NCBI GenBank assembly: GCA_020847555.1
Contig: JADLBT010000231.1
Span: 1-26,145 of the forward strand
Origin: Gemmataceae bacterium
Lineage (GTDB): Bacteria > Planctomycetota > Planctomycetia > Gemmatales > Gemmataceae
Length of the DNA: 26,145 bases
Direction: 5' to 3'
Of this stretch, positions 2,626 through 19,770 are shown piece after piece. A model generated the notes under the pieces. That model made no database searches. It was not told the origin of the DNA and saw only the letters and a program-made list of their open reading frames with translations. The position numbers were made by a program, and so were the translations under genes. The stretch's first letter is position 1. Every line of letters starts with the position of its first letter.

Positions 2626-4632
2626 ATGCCCAGGGTGTTCAGCTGTCCGAACGGCCACCGCTGGGAGGTGGCTGCCGAGAGCCCTGCTTCCGGTAGGGAC
2701 GCGGACGCGGTCTGCCCCGTGTGCGGCACCCTTGCCGACTCCGGCGCTTGCCCCGCCCCGCCCGGATCGGGGAGCGAGCAGGTCGGCGACCTCTCCGTCG
2801 CCGGCTCGACCGTCGCGGACCGCAGTTCCCGCCTACCCCTCCCTGCGCTCCCCGGCCACGACCAGCCGCGACCGACTGTACCTGGGTACGAGATCATCGG
2901 CGAGCTGGGGCACGGCGGCATGGGCATCGTTTACAAGGCCCGCGACCTGGCCCGCAACCGCACCGTCGCCGTGAAGGTGATCCGTAACGACCGGCTGATC
3001 CACACCGAATCCGTCGCCCGGTTCCGCCGCGAGGCGCTGGCCGCTGCCCGGGTCGCCCATCCGAACGTCGTGCGCATCTACGACGCCGACCACTCCGGGG
3101 AGACGAACTACCTCGTCATGGAGTTCGTGGATGGCGTCACTCTGCAGAAGCTGCTCGACCAGGCGACGCCGCTACCGATCGAGTCCGCGTGCGAGTACGT
3201 GCGGCAGGCAGCCCTCGGCCTCCAGCACATCCACGAGCAGGGGCTGGTCCACCGCGACATCAAGCCGAGTAACCTGATGATCGCCCGACCGACGGAAGTC
3301 GGGATACCGGCCCTGGTGAAGATTCTCGACCTCGGGGTCGCCAAGCTCTACCGGCTTGACGAGTCGCCGGTCGAGTCGCTCACCACGTTGACCCACGACG
3401 GCGCCGTCATCGGTACGGCGGACTTCATCGCGCCGGAGCAACTCGAGGATCCGCGCGGGGCCGACATCCGGGCCGACCTGTACAGTCTCGGCTGCACCTT
3501 CTACGCGCTGCTGACGGGCCAGGTGCCGTTCCCCGGCGGCACCCTGATCCAGAAGCTGGACCGGCAGCGGTTCAAGACCCCGCCGGCTGTCGATCAGCTG
3601 CGTCCGGAGGTGCCGCCGGCAGTCGTCGGAGTGGTACGGCGGTTGTTGGCGAAGAAGCCGGCGGACCGCTACCGCACCCCCGCGGAGGCGGCCGCAGCGC
3701 TGGAGCAGGCGGCCCGCGGCGGCCACGTCGCCACGACCGCCCCACCAGCCGTGCGGAAGGAGGTGCGGCGGCTGACCGGCCACCGGGAGGCGGTCTGGGC
3801 CGTCGCTCTCTCGCCCGACGGCCAGCTGGTCCTGTCCGGCGGCAAGGACCGAACCATTCGCATCTGGGAAGTCGAGACGGGGCGCGAGGTGCGCACCCTG
3901 CCCGAGCAGCCGCAGGAGGTACGTGGCCTGGCGTTCGCGCCGGACGGCAAGCACTTCCTGTCGGCGAGCGGGGTGGGGCTGCGTTTGTGGAGCCTGGACG
4001 GAATCGAGCGGGCGCGCTTCAGCGGCCACACCGACGCGGTGAAGTCGGTGGCGTTCGCGCCGGACGGCAGCTGTGTCGTCTCCGGGGCGGACGACCGCAG
4101 TGTGCGCGTCTGGGACGTGCAGAGCGGGCGGGAGTTGCGCCGCTTCGCGCGCCACACCAACGGCGTGGCGGGGGTGGCGGTCTCGCCGGACGGGACGCAG
4201 GTGCTGTCGGCCGGCCGCGACCAGACGCTGCGGCTGTGGAGCCTCCGCAACGGAGAGGAACTGCGTCAGTTCACGGTCCCGCGCGGCCTGGTCCTCAGCG
4301 CCGCGTTCGCGCCGGACGGGCAGCACGCGGTGTCCGGCCACTTCGACACGCTCGCACGCCTGTGGGAGGTCGAGACTGGCCGCGAGCTGCGCCGCCTGCA
4401 GGGCCACCGCCAGATGGTGACCGCTGTCGCCTTCACCCGGGGCGGCCAGCGCGTGCTGTCCGCCAGCCAGGACCAGACGCTGCGCCTCTGGGATCTGGAG
4501 GGCGGCTGGGAGCTGTGCTCCTTCGAGGGGCACGTCGGCGGCGTCACCTGCCTGGCGACGTCGGTCGCCGGGCGCCGCGCCATCTCCGGCGGCCCGGACC
4601 GGACGGTGCGTGGGTGGGAACTGCCGGAGTAA
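2626..4632 (+). CDS. Ser/Thr protein kinase fused to a WD40 propeller
   Basis: A 668-residue Hanks-type kinase. Residues 7-33 hold Cys/His pairs (CPNGH, CPVCG) resembling a small zinc ribbon. The kinase domain spans about 88-360: Gly-rich loop GELGHGGMG (92-100), catalytic Lys117, HRDIKPSN with Asp211, DLG at 235-237 in place of DFG, then APEQ. Residues from about 380 to the end form seven WD40 repeats with GH and W-D/W-E markers, enough for a closed propeller. The fifth and sixth repeats keep the WD core (LWEVETG, LWDLEGG). No transmembrane helix separates the domains, so the protein is probably cytosolic. The propeller likely binds substrates or partners. AGGGGA precedes the ATG. Broken FHA and MoxR genes flank it; substrates are unknown. 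Confidence 0.93.
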   Translation: MPRVFSCPNGHRWEVAAESPASGRDADAVCPVCGTLADSGACPAPPGSGSEQVGDLSVAGSTVADRSSRLPLPALPGHDQPRPTVPGYEIIGELGHGGMGIVYKARDLARNRTVAVKVIRNDRLIHTESVARFRREALAAARVAHPNVVRIYDADHSGETNYLVMEFVDGVTLQKLLDQATPLPIESACEYVRQAALGLQHIHEQGLVHRDIKPSNLMIARPTEVGIPALVKILDLGVAKLYRLDESPVESLTTLTHDGAVIGTADFIAPEQLEDPRGADIRADLYSLGCTFYALLTGQVPFPGGTLIQKLDRQRFKTPPAVDQLRPEVPPAVVGVVRRLLAKKPADRYRTPAEAAAALEQAARGGHVATTAPPAVRKEVRRLTGHREAVWAVALSPDGQLVLSGGKDRTIRIWEVETGREVRTLPEQPQEVRGLAFAPDGKHFLSASGVGLRLWSLDGIERARFSGHTDAVKSVAFAPDGSCVVSGADDRSVRVWDVQSGRELRRFARHTNGVAGVAVSPDGTQVLSAGRDQTLRLWSLRNGEELRQFTVPRGLVLSAAFAPDGQHAVSGHFDTLARLWEVETGRELRRLQGHRQMVTAVAFTRGGQRVLSASQDQTLRLWDLEGGWELCSFEGHVGGVTCLATSVAGRRAISGGPDRTVRGWELPE

Positions 4633-4646
4633 GGCCCCGAACCCGC

Positions 4647-4676
4647 CCCCGGCGCGACCCGGGCTACGCGCCGGGG
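4647..4676 (+). terminator. GC-rich hairpin after the kinase gene
   Basis: CCCCGGCGCG and CGCGCCGGGG form a perfect 10-bp stem around a 10-nt loop, 14 bp after the kinase stop. There is no T-run, but the position fits transcription termination. Confidence 0.5.
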
Positions 4677-4696
4677 CGCGGTTGCACTGGGCATTT

Positions 4697-4723
4697 CCCC
4701 CTCTCCCCTTGTGGGAGAGGGGG
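4697..4723. repeat. Hairpin repeat family C, copy 1
   Basis: CCCCCTCTCCC and GGGAGAGGGGG form an 11-bp stem with a CTTGT loop. The reverse complement of 14216-14240 matches it over 25 bp with one loop difference, so it is a dispersed element. Confidence 0.75.
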
Positions 4724-4818
4724 AGAAGAAGTCATCACGTTGCCGCCCGTGGGCCAGGTCGCCAGCACCGCCAATTGAGCGCACCGCGTCAGCTTTCAGA
4801 GCCCTTTCCCGCGGTGCG

Positions 4819-4824
4819 TATAAT
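4819..4824 (+). promoter_or_regulatory. Perfect TATAAT -10 box upstream of the MoxR operon
   Basis: TATAAT lies 74 bp before the ATG at 4899. The -35 region is not recognisable. A consensus -10 in such GC-rich sequence is unlikely to be chance, and it lies after the kinase hairpins, which supports an independent operon. Confidence 0.5.
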
Positions 4825-4898
4825 GGGATACGCTCTGCAGGCCGAGGGAAAGCGATCGCCTGGCGGATGCCGAGCGCGCTCTCCGAGGGCCTCCTTTC

Positions 4899-7028
4899 AT
4901 GGTTCAGCAGTCGTGGGTCGAAACCGTCACCCTTGCGCAGGCGCGCGCGATCATCCAGTGCATGGCCCACCGGCATAGCGTCCTGCTGCTGTCCGGGCCA
5001 GGCGTGGGCAAGTCCGACATCGTCTACCAGTCGGCCGCGGCGGCGAAGCTGCCGTGCCGGTCCCTCGTTGGCACGCAGATCGCGCCGGAGGACGTCAGCG
5101 GGATCCCGCGCATCGTCGGCGAGCGGTCCGTCTTCTGTCCGCCGCGCGTCCTGCTGCCCGAAAAACCCGAACCGTTCTGCCTGTTCCTCGACGAGCTGCC
5201 GGCCTGCGCGCCCGACATCCAGAAGGCGTTCTACTCGCTCCTCCTCGAACGCCGCCTCGGCGAGCACCCGCTGCCCGAGGGCACCTGGGTCGTGGCCGCT
5301 GGCAACCGCGTCGAGGACCGCTCGCTGGTCCGGGCTCTGTCGAGCGCCCTGGTGAACCGCGTCATCATCCTGCAGGTGCGCGTCCACCTCGGCGAATGGC
5401 TCGACTGGGCGCGGGGGCAGAACCTGCGCCCGGAAGTTGTCGCCTTCATCGAGGACCACCCAGACGCGCTGCAGCGTCCCGTGCCCGATAAACCGGCCCC
5501 CTTCTCGACCCCGCGCGCCTGGGCGTCCCTGGCCCGCGCGCTCGACCTGGCGGAGACGGCCGGCCGGTTGACACCGTCGATCCGCCTGGCCCTCGCCGCC
5601 GGCCGGGTGAGTGCGCATGACGCCGAGACGTTCTGCCTCCACGCCGAGCACCAGCGCCTGAACCGCGTCTCCGTCGCCGACCTGCCCTTCGCCCCCGAGA
5701 CGCATGCCGGACTCGCCGACAAGGGCGTAACGACCCTCGGCCAGCTGCTGGAGAAACGGTCGGGGCTGGGGAAAATGCTGGAAGGGCCGAGGCCGACCGG
5801 CAAGGACGACGACTCCGCCAGGCTGTTCCTGATGGTTCCCGCGTCGCTGCGGCGCATCCACGGGCTGATACCGACGAACGTGGGGAAGGCAATCCCACCT
5901 TCCGCGACGCTCGTCCCCGTGCTGCGCGCCCACCTCGGGAAGCTCGGCTACCCGCAGGACTGGGTCACCATCACCGGCAGCACCGTGCGGCTGCGCATCC
6001 AGGATGCGGGCAAGGCCACCATCAGTCTGTCGCAGGCGAAGAGCCTGATCCAGTGCCTGGCGGCCAGTGAGAGCCTCCTGCTGCAGGCGCCGCCGGGGGT
6101 AGGTAAAACGGCCATCGTCGCCCAGGCGGCCGCCGAGTCCGGGCTGCCGTGCCGGTCGCTGCTGGGGACGCAGATCGCGCCGGAGGACGTCAGCGGGATC
6201 CCGCGCATCGTCGGCGAGCGGTCCGTCTTCTGCCCGCCGCGCGTCCTGCTGCCCGAGGAACTGCGGGCCTTCTGCCTGTTCCTCGACGAACTGCCGGCCT
6301 GCACCGCCGACGTGCAGAAGGCGTTCTACCCGCTGCTCCTGGAGCGGCGCCTCGGCGAGCACCCGCTGCCGGCCGGTAGCTGGGTCGTGGCGGCCGGCAA
6401 CCGCACCGAGGACCGCGCCCTGGTGCGCGACCTGAGCGCGGCGCTCGTCAACCGCCTGTTCCTGTTGCAGGTGCGCGTCGATGCGGACGAGTGGTTCCAC
6501 TGGGCCGCGCGGCAGAACGTGCGCGAGGAGGTGGTGCTGTTCCTGCGCCACATGCCCGAGGCGCTGATGCGGTCGGTGCCGATCGAGCCGGTGCCGTTCT
6601 CGACGCCGCGCGCCTGGGCCATGCTCGCCGAGGCGCTCGACCTGGCCGAGCGCGGCGGTATCCTCGGCCCGGCCATCCGCCGCGCGCTGGCGTTCGGGCG
6701 CGTCTCGCCCGAGGACGCCGCGATGTTCTGCGCCATGGCCGAGGAGTCCATCGCGCGGCTCCGCCTGGCCGACCACTACGTCGAGCGGCCGGAGGAACTG
6801 CCCGCCGGGGAGACGGCCCGCCTGTTCCTGCTGAACCGCATCCGCCGGCTCGCGGAAACCGGCAAACTGGACCACCACCCGCCGGCCGTCATCAACCGCT
6901 TCCTGCGCTCCCTGTCACAGGAGGAGCGGCTGACGATGCTGCTCGATCAGGTGCCGGTGTGGGGCAGGCTCGGGGCGGACGAGGTCATGATGGAGACGCT
7001 CTGCGAGGTCACGGGGGTGCAGCGATGA
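4899..7028 (+). CDS. Double MoxR-type AAA+ ATPase
   Basis: A 709-residue protein with two complete MoxR-like modules. Module 1 has Walker A GPGVGKS (33-39), Walker B LFLDE (95-99) and a sensor-1-like Asn136. Module 2 repeats these as PPGVGKT (398-404), LFLDE (460-464) and Asn501. Residues 254-296 between them resemble a helix-hairpin-helix (GLADKGVTTLGQLLEKRSGL), similar in feel to the RNA polymerase alpha C-terminal domain. MoxR ATPases are usually single-module proteins of about 300-350 residues that form hexamers and remodel VWA-protein complexes. One chain with two modules suggests a pseudo-hexamer of three chains. GAGGG precedes the ATG. The stop overlaps the next start. Both active sites look intact. 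Confidence 0.92.
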   Translation: MVQQSWVETVTLAQARAIIQCMAHRHSVLLLSGPGVGKSDIVYQSAAAAKLPCRSLVGTQIAPEDVSGIPRIVGERSVFCPPRVLLPEKPEPFCLFLDELPACAPDIQKAFYSLLLERRLGEHPLPEGTWVVAAGNRVEDRSLVRALSSALVNRVIILQVRVHLGEWLDWARGQNLRPEVVAFIEDHPDALQRPVPDKPAPFSTPRAWASLARALDLAETAGRLTPSIRLALAAGRVSAHDAETFCLHAEHQRLNRVSVADLPFAPETHAGLADKGVTTLGQLLEKRSGLGKMLEGPRPTGKDDDSARLFLMVPASLRRIHGLIPTNVGKAIPPSATLVPVLRAHLGKLGYPQDWVTITGSTVRLRIQDAGKATISLSQAKSLIQCLAASESLLLQAPPGVGKTAIVAQAAAESGLPCRSLLGTQIAPEDVSGIPRIVGERSVFCPPRVLLPEELRAFCLFLDELPACTADVQKAFYPLLLERRLGEHPLPAGSWVVAAGNRTEDRALVRDLSAALVNRLFLLQVRVDADEWFHWAARQNVREEVVLFLRHMPEALMRSVPIEPVPFSTPRAWAMLAEALDLAERGGILGPAIRRALAFGRVSPEDAAMFCAMAEESIARLRLADHYVERPEELPAGETARLFLLNRIRRLAETGKLDHHPPAVINRFLRSLSQEERLTMLLDQVPVWGRLGADEVMMETLCEVTGVQR

Positions 7029-8311
7029 CGACCGCCGTCGAGAAGGAGGTGCTGGCACAGATCCAGGAGGGGTTCCGCCGGGTCGGGCTCGCGTTCCCGT
7101 ACCTGACGGCCCTCATCCAGAAGATTGATGTGCATCTCGACCGTCGGGTCGAGTCGATGGGCGTGTTCGCGTCGGGCCGGCTGGCGGTCAACCCGGACTT
7201 CGTGCGCGGCCTCTCGCCGCAGGATCTGATGTTCGTGCTCGCCCACGAGCTGTACCACCTGACGCTGCGCACCCACGACCGGGCCGTGGGCACGGACCCG
7301 CTGGCGTTCAACCACGCCCACGACTTCATCATCAACGACATGCTGCGCGAGGAGCTGCAGGTGCAGCGCATCCCGGCCGGCGGCCTCGACTGGCCCGGCG
7401 CTCGGCTGCTGTCCGCGGAGAAACTCCTCGGCGAGATGGAGCGCAACCCCCACCAGCGCCCGCAGGGGGGCGTCTGGGGCAGCCCCGGCGGACTGCCCTC
7501 CGCAGGCGGCGGCGAGCCGGGGGAGGGCGCGGGCCAGGAGCAACCGGGGGGCGCGGGCGGTGAGGGGCAGCCGAAGCCCCGCGGCGATGTCCTCGATAAC
7601 GCCCTCGAGCGTGCGTGGTTCCCCGACGCCCAGGGTGCTGAGCAGCAGGCGCGCGTGCGCGAGGTGCAGGAGGCGGCGGCCCGGGCGGTCGGGCTGCAGG
7701 CGCTGATGGAGTCGATGAGCGGGCGCGGGCGCGGCACCGAGGCCGGGGCGCAGCAGGGGGCGGTGGCGGCGCTGCGCGGCTGGTATCGGCCGCCGTGGGA
7801 GCTAGCCCTGCAGCGCTGGCTGGAGTCGGTGGCGCCGAGTGACCGCAGCTACGCCCGCCCGTCGCGCCGCGGCGCCGACCGGACCGACGTGGTCCTGCCC
7901 GGCCGGAAGCGCGAGGGGTGGACGCTGCACATCGTCCTGGACACCAGCGGGTCGATGGCCGACGAGGTGCCGCGCGCCCTCGGCGCGATCGCCGACTTTT
8001 GCGAGGCGATCGGCGTCGAGTCGGTCCACCTGATCCAGTGCGACACCGCCGTCGGCAGCGACGAGATCCTCGCCCCCGCCGAGGTCGCGCGGTGGCGCGT
8101 CACCGGCTACGGCGGCAGCGACCTGACGCCGGCCATGCTCCGGCTGGCCGAGGATCCGGAGGCCAGCGCCGCCGTCGTCCTGACCGACGGGGAGATCGAC
8201 TACCCGCAACAGGCAATGCCCTACAACGTGCTGTGGGTACTGCCGGAGTGGAAGAACCCACAGGAGTTCACCCCGCGCTACGGCAAGGTCATTGCCATGA
8301 CGCACGGCTGA
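7025..8311 (+). CDS. Metallopeptidase-like / VWA-domain protein
   Basis: A 428-residue protein whose start overlaps the MoxR stop as ATGA, which implies translational coupling. The N-terminal domain (about 1-140) carries HELYH at 74-78, an HEXXH zinc-protease motif, and a downstream HAHD (97-100) that may give further ligands. It matches the putative metallopeptidase domain found with DUF2201. Residues 140-185 are a Gly/Pro/Gln-rich linker. The C-terminal part (about 298-428) is VWA-like: DTSGSM at 306-311, Thr368 in SDLTPA and Asp388 in LTDGE make a metal-binding MIDAS. In this family MoxR ATPases act on VWA partners. A client protein is not apparent. The inferred role is an ATP-driven protease or metal-insertion factor; protease activity is unproven. 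Confidence 0.9.
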   Translation: MTTAVEKEVLAQIQEGFRRVGLAFPYLTALIQKIDVHLDRRVESMGVFASGRLAVNPDFVRGLSPQDLMFVLAHELYHLTLRTHDRAVGTDPLAFNHAHDFIINDMLREELQVQRIPAGGLDWPGARLLSAEKLLGEMERNPHQRPQGGVWGSPGGLPSAGGGEPGEGAGQEQPGGAGGEGQPKPRGDVLDNALERAWFPDAQGAEQQARVREVQEAAARAVGLQALMESMSGRGRGTEAGAQQGAVAALRGWYRPPWELALQRWLESVAPSDRSYARPSRRGADRTDVVLPGRKREGWTLHIVLDTSGSMADEVPRALGAIADFCEAIGVESVHLIQCDTAVGSDEILAPAEVARWRVTGYGGSDLTPAMLRLAEDPEASAAVVLTDGEIDYPQQAMPYNVLWVLPEWKNPQEFTPRYGKVIAMTHG

Positions 8312-8339
8312 CCCGGCCCGGGACGAGGAGGAGACGAGC

Positions 8340-8735
8340 ATGAAGGTGATTCAGCAGCTCATCGCGTACTTCGAGGAGCGCGGGCAGCTCACCCAGGACC
8401 AGGTCGAACGGCTGATCGAGAAGGGCTACTGGAGCCTCTACACCAGCGCGGACATCCGCGGGCTGGAGGGGAACATCGGCCGGAGCCTCATCATCCAGAC
8501 GACGGGCCAGAAGGACGGCCCGCTCTGGGGCACCGACGTCTACACGTCGGACTCGGCGCTGGAGGTGGCCTGCGTCCACGCCGGGATCCTCCGGGTGGGC
8601 CAGACCGGGCTGGTCAAGGTGACGATGGTGCCGCCGCTCCCCGTCTTCCGCGGCTCGACGCGCAACGGCGTCGTCAGCCGCGACTGGACGACCAGCTGGT
8701 CCGGCGCGTACCGGGTGGAGCTGATCCGCAAGTGA
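8340..8735 (+). CDS. Small LCCL-domain protein in the MoxR operon
   Basis: A 131-residue protein starting 28 bp after the VWA gene, with a strong GAGGAGGAGA ribosome site. The first 45 residues are helical (IAYFEERGQLTQDQVERLIE). From about 58 the sequence fits the LCCL fold: WGTDVYTSDS (63-72), ACVHAG (77-82), then FRGSTRNGVVS (103-113). LCCL domains occur in eukaryotic extracellular proteins such as cochlin and in some bacteria, and are thought to bind ligands. Here only one Cys remains (Cys78), so the usual disulfides are absent. There is no signal peptide or membrane helix, so it is probably cytosolic, as expected for a MoxR/VWA partner. It is a good candidate for the substrate or adaptor. 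Confidence 0.82.
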   Translation: MKVIQQLIAYFEERGQLTQDQVERLIEKGYWSLYTSADIRGLEGNIGRSLIIQTTGQKDGPLWGTDVYTSDSALEVACVHAGILRVGQTGLVKVTMVPPLPVFRGSTRNGVVSRDWTTSWSGAYRVELIRK

Positions 8736-8739
8736 GCGC

Positions 8740-8752
8740 CCCGTGGGCTTTC
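8740..8752. repeat. Half site of dyad repeat family A
   Basis: CCCGTGGGCTTTC matches the right arm of the family A hairpins exactly, but no partner arm is visible nearby. It sits 4 bp after the LCCL gene stop. It is probably a decayed copy. Confidence 0.5.
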
Positions 8753-8936
8753 GTGATCCCATTCCACGCCATCTTTCTTGAGCCTGCATCGGCATTGCTT
8801 TTGAACCCTGGTGCTGTTAGAACAGGGCACTCTGCGGGGGCCTGGCAGCCCGTCTGGGGCAGGTAAGCTCAGGTCCGAGATTGTGCCGATTCGCTGGCCC
8901 GCGATCGTGGGCCGCCCTGCGAGAGGTTGGAACAGG

Positions 8937-11033
8937 ATGTCCACCGCCGTCTCCCACCCCACCGCGTCGAACCGGCGGCCCCCTCCGGGCACGGACCTGC
9001 GGCACGATCCGCCGCACCACAAACTCCTCGGCGAGGGCATCGACCGCGCCCGCCGGTGCCTGCTCGCCAGGCAGTGCGCCGACGGCCACTGGGTCGGCGA
9101 ACTCCAGGGCGACACCATCCTCGAGTCCGAGTACGTCCTTCTGATGGCGTTCCTCGGCCGGGAGGGCGAAGAACGGGTCGCGAAGGCGGCCCGCTACCTG
9201 CTGACGCAGCAGCAGCCCGGCGGCGGGTGGGGCAACTATCCAGGCGGGCCGCCCGACCTGAGCGTCACCGTCAAGGCGTACTTCGCCCTCAAGCTCACCG
9301 GCCACGACCCGCAGTCGCCCCCGCTGCGGCGCGCCCGGACGGTCGCCCGCCGACTCGGCGGGGCTGCCCGGTGCAACAGTTTCACGAAGTTCTACCTGGC
9401 GCTGCTCGGCCAGTTCCCCTACGACAACTGCGCGTCGGTCCCGCCGGAGATGCTGCTCCTGCCGCGCTGGGCGTACTTCAACATCTACGCGATGTCGAGC
9501 TGGACGCGCACCATCGTCGTTCCGCTCAGCATCTTCTCCGCCCACAAGCCGGTGCGCCGCCTCCCGCCGGAGCGCGGCATCGCCGAGTTGTTCCTCGACG
9601 CCCCTCGTACTCCCCTCTGGCCGGCCCAGCCGACGCGCCGCCTGCTGACGTGGGGTAACTTCTTCCTGGTGGTCGATCAACTCGTCAAGTGGTACGAGCG
9701 CTGGGGGCCGCGCTCGCTGCGGGAGGCCGCGGTCCGGCGCGCCGCCGACTGGCTGCTCGAACACTTCGAGGACAGCGACGGCGTCGGCGCCATCTTCCCG
9801 CCGATGGTGTACACGGTCATCGGCCTGCACTGCCTCGGCCACGGACCGGATACGCCGGAGATGCGGTGGGCGCTGAAGCAACTCGACGATTTGATCATCG
9901 AGGAGGGCGACACCGTTCGGCTGCAGCCGTGCTTCTCGCCGGTCTGGGACACCGCCCTGACGCTCAACGCGCTGGGGATCGCCGGGCTCGGCGGCCGGCA
10001 CCCGGCGGTGCGGGCCGGGGTGCAGTGGCTCCTTGCCCGGGAGGTGCGCCGCCGTGGCGACTGGAGCCTGCTCAACCCCGACCTGGAACCGGGCGGGTGG
10101 TTCTTCGAGTACCGCAACGGCTTCTACCCGGACACCGATGACACCGCGATGGCATTGATGGCGCTCGCGCGGACCGGGAACGCCTGGGCGAGCGGCGCGC
10201 GCGCGGCCAGCGCCAACGGCCGCCCGGCGGAGACGTGCTTCCCCATCCCGGCGGTCGAGCGCGGCGTGCGCTGGCTGCTGGGGATGCAGAACTCGGATGG
10301 CGGGTGGGCGGCGTTCGACCGAGACATCAACCGCGAGGTGCTGACGAAGGTGCCGTTCGCGGACCACAACGCCATGCTCGACCCGAGCTGTCCGGACATC
10401 ACGGCGCGCGTGCTGGAGGCGCTGGGGCAGTATGGATACCGCATCGGCCAGGACGAGGTGGACCGGGCCGTCGGGTTCATCGAGCGGACGCAGGACCGGC
10501 GTGGCTGCTGGCTCGGACGGTGGGGGGTGAACTACCTCTACGGGACGTGGCAGGTGCTGGCTGGACTGCAGGCGGTCGGGTATGACATGAACCGGCCGCT
10601 GGTGCGCCGGGCCGTCGCGTGGCTCGAGAGTGTGCAGCAGGAGTGCGGCGGTTGGGGCGAGACGTGCGCCAGCTACGACGACCCGAACCTGGCCGGACAG
10701 GGTACGCCGACGGCGTCGCAAACGGCCTGGGCGTTGCTCGGCCTGCTCGCCGCAGGCGCGGGCGCGGGCCGGACGGCAGCGGCCGGCGTCGCGTACCTGC
10801 TGGCCACGCAGCGCCCGGACGGGAACTGGGACGAGGAACCGTTCACCGGCACCGGGTTTCCGAAGGTGTTCTACCTGAAGTACCACCTGTACCGGCTGTA
10901 CTTCCCGCTCATGGCTCTGGCGCGCTACGCCCAGGCGCACGGCATTCCCGTGTCCACCGATGGGGCAGCGGCTCACGGCCGCCCGCACAACCGCCAGTTC
11001 CCCCAACGCACCGAAGCGGTGCTGCGCAGTTAG
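8937..11033 (+). CDS. shc: Squalene-hopene cyclase
   Basis: A 698-residue terpene cyclase that folds squalene to hopene, the first committed step of hopanoid synthesis, at the membrane. The catalytic acid motif DxDD is present as DTDD at 399-402 (after NGFYP). Several QW-type repeats are visible: QQPGGGWGNYPG, QNSDGGWAAFD, QQECGGWGETCASYDDP and QRPDGNWDEEPF. Length is near the usual 630-720. The start at 8937 (MSTAVSHP) is preferred: GAGAGG and ACAGG lie upstream and earlier in-frame Met codons add non-conserved residues. The partner gene hpnH follows 151 bp downstream, past a family A repeat. The alternative symbol is hpnF. Confidence 0.96.
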   Translation: MSTAVSHPTASNRRPPPGTDLRHDPPHHKLLGEGIDRARRCLLARQCADGHWVGELQGDTILESEYVLLMAFLGREGEERVAKAARYLLTQQQPGGGWGNYPGGPPDLSVTVKAYFALKLTGHDPQSPPLRRARTVARRLGGAARCNSFTKFYLALLGQFPYDNCASVPPEMLLLPRWAYFNIYAMSSWTRTIVVPLSIFSAHKPVRRLPPERGIAELFLDAPRTPLWPAQPTRRLLTWGNFFLVVDQLVKWYERWGPRSLREAAVRRAADWLLEHFEDSDGVGAIFPPMVYTVIGLHCLGHGPDTPEMRWALKQLDDLIIEEGDTVRLQPCFSPVWDTALTLNALGIAGLGGRHPAVRAGVQWLLAREVRRRGDWSLLNPDLEPGGWFFEYRNGFYPDTDDTAMALMALARTGNAWASGARAASANGRPAETCFPIPAVERGVRWLLGMQNSDGGWAAFDRDINREVLTKVPFADHNAMLDPSCPDITARVLEALGQYGYRIGQDEVDRAVGFIERTQDRRGCWLGRWGVNYLYGTWQVLAGLQAVGYDMNRPLVRRAVAWLESVQQECGGWGETCASYDDPNLAGQGTPTASQTAWALLGLLAAGAGAGRTAAAGVAYLLATQRPDGNWDEEPFTGTGFPKVFYLKYHLYRLYFPLMALARYAQAHGIPVSTDGAAAHGRPHNRQFPQRTEAVLRS

Positions 11034-11078
11034 GATCGGACCGCCCTGAGTGGGCGCGGGGAGTGCGAGTGGGGAGTT

Positions 11079-11149
11079 AAAGCCCACGGATCGCGTCCCG
11101 TGGGACAAGTCTCCGGCGCTCGACCCACGGGACGCGACCCGTGGGCTTT
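11079..11149. repeat. Dyad repeat family A, long form, copy 2
   Basis: The left arm 11079-11104 and right arm 11124-11149 form a 26-bp stem with one mismatch around a 19-nt loop. Each arm can also fold alone (CCACGG/CCGTGG). It lies between shc and hpnH, 36 bp before the hpnH start, so it may reduce read-through or protect the upstream mRNA. Confidence 0.85.
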
Positions 11150-11184
11150 CTCTCCCCACTCCCACGCTGCGACAAGGAGCCGTT

Positions 11185-12204
11185 ATGCGCTTTCCGCTGA
11201 GTTTGACGACATCGATGGTGGGCTACATCGCCAAAAAGAAGATCGCCAGGGAGAAACGCTTCCCTCTGGTCCTGATGCTTGAACCGCTCCACGCCTGCAA
11301 CCTGACCTGCACCGGCTGCGGCCGGATCCGCGAGTACGAGACGACCATCAAGCAGCGGCTGAGCGTCGCCGAGTGCCTGGCGTCGGTGGACGAGTGCGGC
11401 GCGCCGATCGTCAGCCTCTGCGGCGGCGAGCCGATGATCTATCCCGAGATCGGCCGCCTGGTCCGCGGCATCCTCAAACGTCGCAAGCACATCTACCTGT
11501 GTACCAACGGCATGTTCATTCAGAAGCGACTGCACGAGTTCAAGGCCACGTCGCGCTTCTTCTTCAACGTCCACCTCGACGGACTGGAGGAGGTACACGA
11601 CCGGGCCGTCGAGCGTGCCGGCGTCTTCCGGGCTGCCGTGGACGGAATCAGGGCCGCGAAGCAGGCCGGGTTCCTCGTCTGTACGAACACGACCATCTTC
11701 AAGGACACCGATCTGAACGAGGTCGATGCCCTGTTTGCCTACCTGACCCGCCTCGGCGTGGACGGGTTCATGCTCTCGCCCGCCTACGGCTACACGGCGG
11801 TCCACGAGACGAACCCGGAAGGAGCGGCCGAGATCTTCATGACGCGCGCCGACGTGCGCGCCAAGTTCCAGGAGGCGAGGGGGCTGCTGCGCAAGTACCG
11901 GATGGCGTCGTCGCCGATCTACCTGGAGTTTCTGAGCGGCGAGCGCGAGCTGACCTGCACCGCCTGGGGCAACCCGACCCGCAACGTGAAGGGGTGGAAG
12001 GGGCCGTGCTACCTGATCACCGACGCCCACCACGAGACGTTCGCGGACCTGATGAACAACACGCCGTGGGAGGAGTACGGATACGGCAACGACCCGCGCT
12101 GCGAACACTGCATGGTGCATTGCGGCTACGAGCCGTCGGCGGCGCTGGGCGTCAATCGGAAACTCGGCGACAGCCTCAAGATGCTGATGTGGCAGCTGAC
12201 GTGA
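11185..12204 (+). CDS. hpnH: Adenosyl-hopene synthase HpnH (radical SAM)
   Basis: A 339-residue radical-SAM enzyme that joins the 5'-deoxyadenosyl radical to hopene, giving adenosylhopane, the precursor of extended hopanoids. The cluster motif CX3CX2C is present at Cys38, Cys42 and Cys45 (CNLTCTGC). It is followed by the SAM-binding GGEP (in SLCGGEPMIYPEI). The C-terminus has the characteristic Cys-rich HCMVHCGYEP segment, typical of HpnH. Length matches the family. The ATG at 11185 is chosen because AAGGAG lies upstream and a longer start would run back through the repeat. It follows shc on the same strand; the family A dyad repeat between them could lower co-transcription. Confidence 0.95.
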   Translation: MRFPLSLTTSMVGYIAKKKIAREKRFPLVLMLEPLHACNLTCTGCGRIREYETTIKQRLSVAECLASVDECGAPIVSLCGGEPMIYPEIGRLVRGILKRRKHIYLCTNGMFIQKRLHEFKATSRFFFNVHLDGLEEVHDRAVERAGVFRAAVDGIRAAKQAGFLVCTNTTIFKDTDLNEVDALFAYLTRLGVDGFMLSPAYGYTAVHETNPEGAAEIFMTRADVRAKFQEARGLLRKYRMASSPIYLEFLSGERELTCTAWGNPTRNVKGWKGPCYLITDAHHETFADLMNNTPWEEYGYGNDPRCEHCMVHCGYEPSAALGVNRKLGDSLKMLMWQLT

Positions 12205-16482: not shown

Positions 16483-19400
16483 ATGACCCGCGTACGCATC
16501 CCCTTGCTGGCCGCCCTGGTCGCTTGCTGGACCGCCTCCTCCATCTCCGCGCAGACCCAGGAACCGATCCGGTTCGCGCGCACCCCGGACGTCGCCCCGG
16601 ACGGCAAACTCGTCGCCTTCAGCTACCTCGGCGACATCTGGACGGTCGATGCGATCGGCGGCGTCGCCCGTCCCGTCACCATGCACGAGAAGCACGAATT
16701 CAACCCGGTCTTCAGCCCCGACGGGCGCCGCCTCGCCTTCTCGTCGAACCGCCACGGCTCCTACGACGTCTTCGTCGTTCCGGTCCACGGCGGCCGCCCC
16801 ACCCGGCTGACGGTGGACTCGGCCGACGACCTGGTCTGCGGGTGGTCCCCCGACGGCAAGCAGATCCTGTTTACCTCGACGCGCAGCAACGACTTCCCGC
16901 CCGTCCGCGAGTTGTACACGATCCCGGTTGCCGGCGGCCGGGCTGCCCGCGTCAGCGCCCACGAAGGGCGGGACGGCTCCTTCTCCCCTGACGGCAGCCG
17001 CATCGCCTACGTCCGCGGCCCCGGCGTGGCGTACCGCCGCGGGTATCGCGGTTCTTCCAATAACGACATCTGGATGAGCCGTGCCGACGGGACCGCCAAC
17101 GCCCGGGTGACCACCTTCGCCGGACACGACGGAGCGCCGATGTGGTCGGCCGATGGCCGGTCGCTGTACTACGTCTCCGACTGCTGGAGCAGCCTCGGCG
17201 GCGCGGCCAACATCGTCCGCATGGAACTGTCCCCTGACGGCATCCGCGCCGTCCAGGCCGGTACACGCCCCACGCTCGTCACCGACCACAAGGACGAATC
17301 GGTCCGCAACGCCCGCATCAGCGCCGGCGGCGAGTGGATCGTCTACGAGTGCGGCGCCGACCTGTGGCTCGTCTCGACGAGGGGCGGGCCGCCGCGCAAG
17401 CTCGTTATCGAGGTCCACGCCGACGACAAGACCAACCCGGAACGCACCGTCACCATCAAGGACTCCGGCGCGACCGAGTTCGCCCCGTCGCCCGACGACC
17501 GCTACCTCGCCTTCGTCGTCCACGGCGAGATCTTCCTCATCCCGCGCGGCGGCGGGAAGGCTCGCCGCCTGACCGATCACCCGGCCAACGACCACGGGGT
17601 TGCCTGGTCGCCCGACGCGAAGCACCTGATCTTCCTGTCCGACCGCCAGGGGCAGGAGGACGTTTATCTGCTCGAGTCCGACGACCCGGAACATCCGCAG
17701 CTGGTCAAGGCACACCTGTTCAAGGTCAAGCAGCTGACACGCACGCCCGAGGCCGAGATCGGCCTGAACTTCTCACCGGACGGCAAGCGCCTCAGCTTCC
17801 TGCGGGCCGGCAAACTCGTCACCATGAAGCCGGACGGCAGCGACGTGCGCGTGGTCGTCAACGAGAGCACGGTGATCGACTACGAGTGGTCCCCGGACTC
17901 GAAGTGGCTCGCGTACGCGCGCATGGACGGCTCGTGGGCGAGCGAGCTGTACATCGTCCCGGCGACCGGCGCGACCGCCGCCGACCCGGCGCGCAACGTG
18001 ACCCGGTACGCGACCTACAACGCGGGCGTGACCTGGAGCCGGACCGGCAACAAGCTGGCGTTCCTGAGCGAGCGGCGCGGCGGGTCGTCGCAGAGCCTGT
18101 ACGTCCTGTCGCTCCAGAAGCCGGCCGTGTCCGGCGCGCCCGCGAGCAAGGAGATCGACTGGGAAGACATCCACCGCCGGGTCCGGCAGCCGGCTCCGAT
18201 TTCGGTCGCGGAGGGCGCCATTTCCGGCGACGGGGCGAAGGTCGCCTTCCGCTCGTCCCAGAGCGACGATCTGTGGGTTGCCGGGACCGACGGCAAGAGC
18301 CTGACGAAGCTGACGACCGGCGGCCTGAAGCCGACGCAGATCCAGTGGTCGCGCGGCGTGCTGTCCAGCCTGCTGTACTTCCGCGACAGCAAGGGGTCGA
18401 TCCGCATGACCAGCGCCCTGACCGGCGCCAGTTCCGGCCCGAATGCCGGCACGCCGGCGCTCGTCCCGTTCGAGGCGCGCATGACGGTGCATCGCGATAA
18501 GGACTTCGCCGAGGTGTTCGACCAGGCGTGGCGGCTGCTCAACGAGAATTTCTACGACGTCAACTTCCACGGGGTTGACTGGCGCGGGGTCCGCGCGCGG
18601 TATCGGCCGCTGGTCGCTCACGTCGCGATGAAGGAGGATCTGTACGCGCTGATCGGCCTGATGCTCGGCGAGCTGAACGCCTCGCACCTGGGCATCGTCG
18701 GCCCATCCTCGGTGCCGGAGCAGCAGACGGCCGATCTGGGCCTGCTGTTCGATGAGCACTACCGCGGACCGGGTCTGAAGGTCGCCGAGATCCTCAAGGG
18801 CGGCCCGGCCGACCGGCGCGGGCTGAACCTCAAAGCCGGCGACATCCTCGAGAGCATCGACCGCACCCCGCTGACCGAGAAGACGGCGTTGGCCTCTATC
18901 CTGAACGACAGGGCGGGCGAGACGGTGGTCGTGCAGGTCGTTAGCAAGCCGGGCGACAAGGCGAAGCGGCGCGTCGAGCTGGTTGTCGTCAACCGGGTGC
19001 AGCTGCGGCCGCTGATGTACCAGCGCTGGATCGACGGCAACGCGAAGAAGGTGGCCGAGCTGAGCAAGGGCAAGCTGGGCTACATCCACATCCCGAGCAT
19101 GGACGAGACCGGGCTCGACTCGTTCCTGCGGGCGCTGTACTCGGACAACACCGACAAGGAAGCGATCGTACTCGACGTCCGCTACAACAGCGGCGGGTTC
19201 ACGCACGACCGGGTGTTGAACTACCTCGGCGGGAAGGACCACACGTTCTTCTTGCAGCGGCACGGCGGCGTTGGTTCGGTGCTGCGCTCGACCGACCGGC
19301 GCTGGAACAAGCCGCTGGTGCTGCTCATCAACAACCGCTCCTACAGCGACGCGGAGATCTTCCCGCACGCCTTCCGGACGCTCGGTCTGGGCAAGCTGAT

Positions 19401-19770
19401 CGGCCAGCCGACCGGGGCACACGTCATCGGCACCGGGCGGATGCGGCTGATCGACGGCTCGCTGTTCATGGTGCCGCGGACCGGCGTGTTCACGTCGAAG
19501 GGCGTGAACATGGAGCGTGAAGGCGTGGTTCCCGACTTCGTGGTGGACCCGCACCCGGACGAGTTGGCCCGGGGCGTGGACCGGCAGCTGGAGAAGGCGG
19601 TCGAGGTGCTGCAGCACGAGGTCGTGCTGTGGAAGAAAACCCGCCCGCCGGGCGTGGTGTTTAACCCCGGCGGCGGCGGACCGATGCCCGGCCCGGTGGT
19701 TGGCCCGGCCACCGCCCCGCCGATGCCGGCGCCGATGACGCCGTCCCGCGGCCCCAAGGGTGGGGCTTGA
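16483..19770 (+). CDS. Secreted tricorn-like protease (S41)
   Basis: A 1095-residue protein. An N-terminal signal peptide (IPLLAALVACWTASSISA) implies export. Residues about 30-620 are beta-propeller repeats of the PD40/TolB kind (FSPDGRRLAFSSNRHGSYDV, WSPDGKQILF, and others), as in tricorn. A PDZ domain spans about 749-840 (GGPADRRGLNLKAGDILES). The S41 core follows. Candidate catalytic residues by tricorn pattern are His735 (NASHLG), Ser955 with Asp956 (RSYSDAE) and Glu1011 (MEREGVVPD), with the oxyanion GG at YNSGGF. The last ~35 residues are Pro/Gly-rich. Tricorn degrades peptides to short products; a secreted form may recycle peptides in the periplasm. CAGGA precedes the ATG. Confidence 0.94.
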   Translation: MTRVRIPLLAALVACWTASSISAQTQEPIRFARTPDVAPDGKLVAFSYLGDIWTVDAIGGVARPVTMHEKHEFNPVFSPDGRRLAFSSNRHGSYDVFVVPVHGGRPTRLTVDSADDLVCGWSPDGKQILFTSTRSNDFPPVRELYTIPVAGGRAARVSAHEGRDGSFSPDGSRIAYVRGPGVAYRRGYRGSSNNDIWMSRADGTANARVTTFAGHDGAPMWSADGRSLYYVSDCWSSLGGAANIVRMELSPDGIRAVQAGTRPTLVTDHKDESVRNARISAGGEWIVYECGADLWLVSTRGGPPRKLVIEVHADDKTNPERTVTIKDSGATEFAPSPDDRYLAFVVHGEIFLIPRGGGKARRLTDHPANDHGVAWSPDAKHLIFLSDRQGQEDVYLLESDDPEHPQLVKAHLFKVKQLTRTPEAEIGLNFSPDGKRLSFLRAGKLVTMKPDGSDVRVVVNESTVIDYEWSPDSKWLAYARMDGSWASELYIVPATGATAADPARNVTRYATYNAGVTWSRTGNKLAFLSERRGGSSQSLYVLSLQKPAVSGAPASKEIDWEDIHRRVRQPAPISVAEGAISGDGAKVAFRSSQSDDLWVAGTDGKSLTKLTTGGLKPTQIQWSRGVLSSLLYFRDSKGSIRMTSALTGASSGPNAGTPALVPFEARMTVHRDKDFAEVFDQAWRLLNENFYDVNFHGVDWRGVRARYRPLVAHVAMKEDLYALIGLMLGELNASHLGIVGPSSVPEQQTADLGLLFDEHYRGPGLKVAEILKGGPADRRGLNLKAGDILESIDRTPLTEKTALASILNDRAGETVVVQVVSKPGDKAKRRVELVVVNRVQLRPLMYQRWIDGNAKKVAELSKGKLGYIHIPSMDETGLDSFLRALYSDNTDKEAIVLDVRYNSGGFTHDRVLNYLGGKDHTFFLQRHGGVGSVLRSTDRRWNKPLVLLINNRSYSDAEIFPHAFRTLGLGKLIGQPTGAHVIGTGRMRLIDGSLFMVPRTGVFTSKGVNMEREGVVPDFVVDPHPDELARGVDRQLEKAVEVLQHEVVLWKKTRPPGVVFNPGGGGPMPGPVVGPATAPPMPAPMTPSRGPKGGA

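Follow-up and report, generated by a model that had tools for sequence, protein, structure and literature searches.

The window (the whole stretch of DNA analysed, 26,145 nucleotides of contig JADLBT010000231.1 from a Gemmataceae bacterium) contains a candidate operon of three genes, called here A, B and C. The genes and the features located in and around them are the following.

4795..4824, + strand: sigma-70-like promoter match (TTCAGA, 18 nt, TATAAT; consensus match only)
4899..7028, + strand: gene A, tandem MoxR-type AAA+ ATPase, 709 aa
4995..5015, + strand: P-loop of the first ATPase domain, GPGVGKS, residues 33-39
5073..5137, + strand: 65-bp exact repeat, copy 1, in the first ATPase half
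5655..5996, + strand: linker between the gene A ATPase domains, about residues 253-366, placed by alignment
6090..6110, + strand: P-loop of the second ATPase domain, PPGVGKT, residues 398-404
6168..6232, + strand: 65-bp exact repeat, copy 2, in the second ATPase half
7025..8311, + strand: gene B, DUF2201_N metallopeptidase domain and C-terminal VWA domain, 428 aa
7244..7258, + strand: HEXXH motif, HELYH
7940..7954, + strand: MIDAS motif of the VWA domain, DTSGS, residues 306-310
8312..8339, + strand: spacer between genes B and C, 28 nt, with ribosome site AGGAGGAG at 8326-8333
8340..8735, + strand: gene C, small LCCL protein, 131 aa
8340..8474, + strand: N-terminal helical-hairpin module of gene C, about residues 1-45

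The tight packing of three genes on one strand, as given in the preliminary description, was confirmed, with an ATGA overlap between genes A and B and the 28-nt gap before gene C. The sigma-70-like match ends 74 nt before the start of gene A and is the only one in 4600-9000, compared to a mean of 0.1 in shuffled sequences. Upstream, at 266 nt from gene A, lies a WD40-repeat Ser/Thr kinase (2626-4632), a neighbour of the candidate operon by position alone. The downstream flank is a squalene-hopene cyclase (8937-11033), and a radical SAM protein is also among the close neighbours. The sole restriction-type name around the locus is that of a Uma2-family gene 15 kb off. No tRNA and no Rfam match above gathering scores were present in the window.

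The two halves of gene A are both of AAA_5/MoxR type, are identical at 172 of 259 aligned residues, and each contain a P-loop, a Walker B and an AAGNR motif. AAA_5 and bpMoxR exceed their Pfam cut-offs in gene A (for bpMoxR 34.1 bits, cut-off 27, a match also found in 12 of 13 aligned homologs) and nSTAND3 stays below its own; phrog_1297 matches at 5.3e-113. According to Pfam, 3 of the 13 aligned gene A-type proteins have an RNA polymerase alpha-CTD-like domain (PF03118) as their linker, and a profile of all 13 matches solved alpha-CTD structures (E 1.9e-6); Pfam gave no PF03118 match in the linker of the window's own gene A. Residues common to the two halves share the same codon more often than expected (120 of 172, expected 102.5), in particular at residues 62-101, a region chosen post hoc (33 of 36, about 21 expected). 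This codon sharing hints at gene conversion between the halves, and no more than that. The doubling had been presented as an unusual trait. It is in fact common in relatives: two P-loop patterns were found in 69 of the best 120 of 142 gene A homologs, in a search whose length limit omits most single-domain proteins.

Gene B is a member of the DUF2201 metallopeptidase-VWA family, with PF13203 (72.8 bits, cut-off 23.2) and PF09967 (60.2 bits, cut-off 26.4) on one chain, and it matches phrog_1314 at 1.3e-50. Among the best 120 of its 1,968 homologs, the HEXXH pattern was present in 112 and the MIDAS pattern in 119. The structure model places the VWA fold at about residues 298-428, where it closes the protein, and its structural matches include the MIDAS chains of NorQD and midasin. 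The peptidase activity of gene B is putative, as suggested by the HEXXH motif. The P-loop and Walker B motifs of gene A, together with the adjoining MIDAS VWA domain of gene B, mark the two as a putative MoxR-type AAA+/VWA co-chaperone pair, for which ring assembly and ATP-dependent remodelling are predicted by analogy.

That a MoxR protein and a VWA protein make a known pairing, as stated beforehand, is borne out, the combination of MoxR with a metallopeptidase-VWA protein being widespread and already in print. In the available part of PMC7824862, jumbo phages are described to carry a MoxR AAA+ ATPase next to a vWA protein whose N-terminal domain is a metallopeptidase, with a proposed role in virion assembly. 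All seven phage and plasmid records that we examined have a single-domain relative of gene A upstream of gene B. The window differs from the jumbo-phage pair in its LCCL protein and its doubled ATPase, neither of which is mentioned in the phage passage of PMC7824862.

In gene C the LCCL fold spans residues 30-131, with a Pfam LCCL match above cut-off. We take the protein to be probably cytosolic, because it contains one cysteine and no strongly hydrophobic stretch (highest 19-residue hydropathy 1.17). Residues 1-45 have no Pfam match; two hairpin helices are predicted there (residues 2-13 and 19-27) with modest confidence, the pLDDT of the block being 63-74.

The association of the LCCL gene with genes A and B was examined by comparing lists of homologs: 68 of 77 LCCL homologs with a contig size, the best 120 of 1,968 for gene B and the best 120 of 142 for gene A. 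Linkage was inferred when the longest contigs of two homologs had an identical size in bp; among LCCL-bearing contigs, gene order and strand were read in the window only. Among LCCL homologs on contigs of at least 6 kb, at least 19 of 27 share a contig size with a homolog of gene A or B (at least 18 with gene B and at least 11 with gene A), and the remaining 8 have no partner among the matches listed. When all contig sizes are considered, at least 22 of 68 LCCL homologs are matched, with 0 of 22 below 2 kb among the matches listed. As a control, sizes shifted by 1-200 bp gave a mean of 0.1 match and a maximum of 2, compared to the 18 of 26 distinct sizes observed. The linkage is seen for LCCL proteins 57-70% identical to gene C, and two contigs, of 2,092 and 2,112 bp, are each listed for a B and a C homolog, which leaves less than 500 bp over. 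B and C distances are correlated across 21 pairs (Mantel r 0.38, reached by 35 of 5000 permutations). None of the three LCCL proteins without the N-terminal module was linked; P0078, one of them, may be a fragment.

A 561-aa protein with DUF2201 and LCCL domains (P0120) was considered as a natural fusion and rejected: the conserved end of the VWA protein is lost, and unrelated residues run up to the LCCL start. We read it as a probable frameshift read-through, which would be evidence of adjacency and not of a true fusion. P0283 and P0298, in which MoxR runs into DUF2201, have the same appearance and were rejected likewise.

To situate the linkage, a midpoint-rooted FastTree tree of 121 gene B proteins was used, in which groups are read as leaf order, without support values or a monophyly test. 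The 22 gene B proteins labelled as LCCL-linked form one leaf-order run along with 11 unlinked ones; 3 of these labels are on contigs below 6 kb, and 2 were assigned manually (P0084, which does not differ from the window's protein, and the read-through P0120). The other 26 gene B homologs on contigs of at least 6 kb have no LCCL protein among the matches listed, in a search that scored 85 candidates and may miss diverged LCCL genes. Few homologs of the three genes carry organism names; those that do include Gemmataceae among the closer ones and Planctomycetales and Lentisphaeria among the more distant, in keeping with a Gemmataceae host. Judged from these sequences, the LCCL linkage is real but clade-limited. 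The LCCL gene thus co-occurs with genes A and B in related sequences within the clade (at least 19 of 27, against 0.1 with shifted sizes). The preliminary description had called the LCCL partner an unfamiliar addition: this stands in that the third component is new, and has to be narrowed in that the underlying A and B pair is known and the LCCL gene occupies one part of the gene B tree.

The N-terminal module was found in 72 of 78 LCCL homologs, at the very start of 70 and more internally in P0029 and P0080. Across the 21 linked proteins it varies a little more than the LCCL part does (mean distances of 0.36 and 0.33, respectively). A profile built from the 70 LCCL-family modules only was run against 5,440 frames, taken from the window and 35 loci. 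After the window itself, the best match (E 1.9e-4) is the third gene of another locus, L001, the next E being 1.9 once L020, which is the same contig, is left out. L001 encodes a single MoxR protein, a DUF2201-VWA protein 38% identical to gene B and, 172 nt later, this third gene (from 4141 on), whose start methionine is aligned with the module. The gene runs off the contig, and its visible C-terminus has no LCCL match. The origin of L001 is doubtful, because it is labelled as a Mollicutes MAG and no other strong match was found among 195 genomes of the same phylum.

The same LCCL-only profile also scores 19.9 bits on the N-terminus of a MoxR protein, P0308, the best of 7,255 shuffled N-termini reaching 9.6; on 242 gene A and gene B N-termini it found nothing beyond P0308. 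Modules noticed by eye on three other MoxR proteins (P0306, P0309 and P0311) were dropped, as only P0308 exceeds the shuffled N-termini with this profile; P0311 matches only after P0308 joins the profile. A candidate inside the VWA protein P0142 was also discarded (10.6 bits, near the shuffled maximum). Copies are seen on the LCCL third gene, on the L001 third gene and on P0308, never two in one genome.

Among the closest known systems are the ternary systems of Kaur 2020 (PMC7159879), which like the window associate MoxR, vWA and a third protein. According to the available part of that source, the third proteins are VMAP, iSTAND, FtsH or beta-propeller proteins, a metallopeptidase occurs rarely, as an effector domain of the vWA protein, and small helical adaptor modules (EADs) are common to core and associated proteins. 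The gene C module is alike in principle to the EADs, except that no genome showed a pair of copies. The window's third gene differs in being an LCCL gene, and no VMAP, iSTAND, FtsH or beta-propeller domain exceeded its Pfam cut-off in genes A, B and C. In the bpMoxR subsystem the propeller is on the vWA protein, whereas gene B ends with its VWA domain; the P-loops of gene A are ordinary (GVGKS/T), whereas those of that subsystem are often GXXXTAKS in the available part of PMC7159879. Its main text contains none of the words LCCL, DUF2201 and HEXXH. In our best reading, the unit is akin to the MoxR-vWA ternary systems and their EAD adaptors, and matches none of the four described subsystems.

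NorQ/NorD, RavA/ViaA and midasin are like the window in that, as far as the available accounts go, a MoxR AAA+ protein acts through a VWA partner. The LCCL domains of Rxt3, in Sin3/Rpd3 HDAC complexes, and of cochlin (8i03, 1jbi) are eukaryotic, unlike gene C. To our knowledge, the VWA partner has no peptidase domain in the three former systems, which include no LCCL protein, and neither Rxt3 nor cochlin has a MoxR or VWA partner. Cochlin is secreted and disulfide-bonded, whereas gene C has its one cysteine. No paper on LCCL with MoxR, nor on LCCL with Planctomycetes, was found in the open-licence literature searched, and it is on this sole basis that we consider the LCCL-MoxR combination not to be in print. 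The novelty is an unnamed N-terminal module of ~45 residues together with an LCCL third component.

A docking part would be expected to recur as this module does, on a MoxR chain and on two dissimilar third proteins, so that gene C most likely brings to the ATPase and its VWA partner a target or a signal that its LCCL head reads. Genes A, B and C could then form one machine, a MoxR/VWA-peptidase with an exchangeable third protein docked by the module, a reading to which we give about even chances. Gene A would be the tandem MoxR AAA+ ATPase and gene B the VWA co-chaperone with a zincin-type peptidase domain. The N-terminal module would dock the third protein onto the ATPase/VWA machine, and the LCCL head of gene C would recognise a target or ligand. 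ATP hydrolysis, relayed via the VWA domain, would remodel the bound target, and cleavage of that target by the HEXXH domain may follow. The third protein would be able to exchange its C-terminal head from one lineage to another.

The LCCL protein might instead be the client, i.e. the working part, which would owe its assembly, activation or trimming to the MoxR/VWA-peptidase pair. The vWA domain of the MoxR-vWA pairs studied is described as capturing a substrate peptide, whose remodelling the ATPase then drives (available part of PMC7159879), and the gene B VWA model resembles, among many VWA domains, the midasin MIDAS domains solved with UBL partners (8ql1, 6qtb). A docking part would better explain why the same module stands on P0308 and on the L001 third gene, whose C-terminus differs, and we hold the client role to be possible but doubtful. 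Between the two roles proposed beforehand for gene C, the N-terminal module tips towards a putative adaptor rather than a client; gene B may be either the protease or the assembly factor suggested in the same place. It is quite unlikely that gene C is a passenger, i.e. an LCCL gene which the operon acquired in a single Gemmataceae clade and which is simply co-transcribed. The absence of a listed LCCL protein for the 26 distant gene B homologs and for 11 of the 33 labelled ones within the LCCL-linked run (85 candidates scored) would agree with this, but the linkage recurs for LCCL proteins at 57-70% identity to gene C and the module recurs in the L001 third gene and P0308.

It also seems unlikely that the three genes are a conflict system, anti-phage or otherwise, built like the MoxR-vWA ternary ones and using gene C as its effector. 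The grammar of MoxR, vWA and third protein with a small helical module does resemble the EAD principle (available part of PMC7159879), and bpMoxR, the Pfam family matched by gene A and most of its aligned homologs, is named after beta-propeller ternary systems. However, PADLOC matches only short P-loop stretches of gene A (best MkoA, 8.4e-05, residues 369-411) and nothing in genes B or C, the word LCCL is absent from that source's main text as noted above, and the close neighbours are the kinase-WD40, cyclase and radical SAM genes, the Uma2-family gene being distant.

Returning to the docked-machine reading, a bolder form of it, which we advance tentatively and judge rather improbable as a whole, is that of a further MoxR-vWA ternary class. 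Its vWA co-chaperone would be a metalloprotease and a new EAD-like hairpin would couple exchangeable third proteins to it; in Gemmataceae the LCCL head would be an intracellular sensor and, through its ligand, would set off ATP-driven remodelling and proteolysis.

We know of no substrate of the MoxR/VWA-peptidase pair, and the LCCL fold is known chiefly from proteins that animals secrete and from HDAC complexes of fungi. If the docked-machine reading is true, the short unnamed module would mark proteins acted on by MoxR/VWA-peptidase machines. It would give a handle on this widespread pair, and the LCCL fold would gain an intracellular bacterial setting.

An exact repeat of 65 bp is shared by the two ATPase halves of gene A, the tandem MoxR-type gene (window 5073-5137 and 6168-6232), and the halves also have shared codons in excess. 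Together the repeat and the codon excess hint that gene conversion may have taken place between them. Some gene A homologs, such as P0247, carry an RNA polymerase alpha-CTD-like domain (PF03118) between their two MoxR domains. This domain is present in 3 of the 13 aligned gene A proteins, with a match of 3.4e-21 in P0247, and in the window it appears worn down (5655-5996).

Among the LCCL homologs of gene C, P0034 and P0052 are different proteins, each bearing the N-terminal helical hairpin module, and both are listed with a 15,766-bp contig. They appear to lie on a single contig with one gene B homolog among the matches listed (P0085). Downstream in the window, a squalene-hopene cyclase gene and, after it, the gene of a DUF3463-bearing radical SAM protein (8937-12204) suggest a hopanoid cluster. 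Further on (16483-19770) is a Tricorn-like protease, in which a beta-propeller, a PDZ domain and an S41 peptidase domain are combined.

The viral contig L036 (8010-12156) contains a single MoxR gene, two 96-aa ORFs and a DUF2201-VWA gene, just downstream of which an ORF resembles, as judged by eye, a reverse transcriptase. In phage records (H43, H44 and others), one DUF2201 metallopeptidase-VWA protein bears two names within the same phage: "metallopeptidase" in one record but "HNH endonuclease" in another. The HNH label is also attached to PHROG 1314, the phage family matched by gene B, and on DUF2201 metallopeptidase-VWA proteins it looks like a misannotation that has spread.
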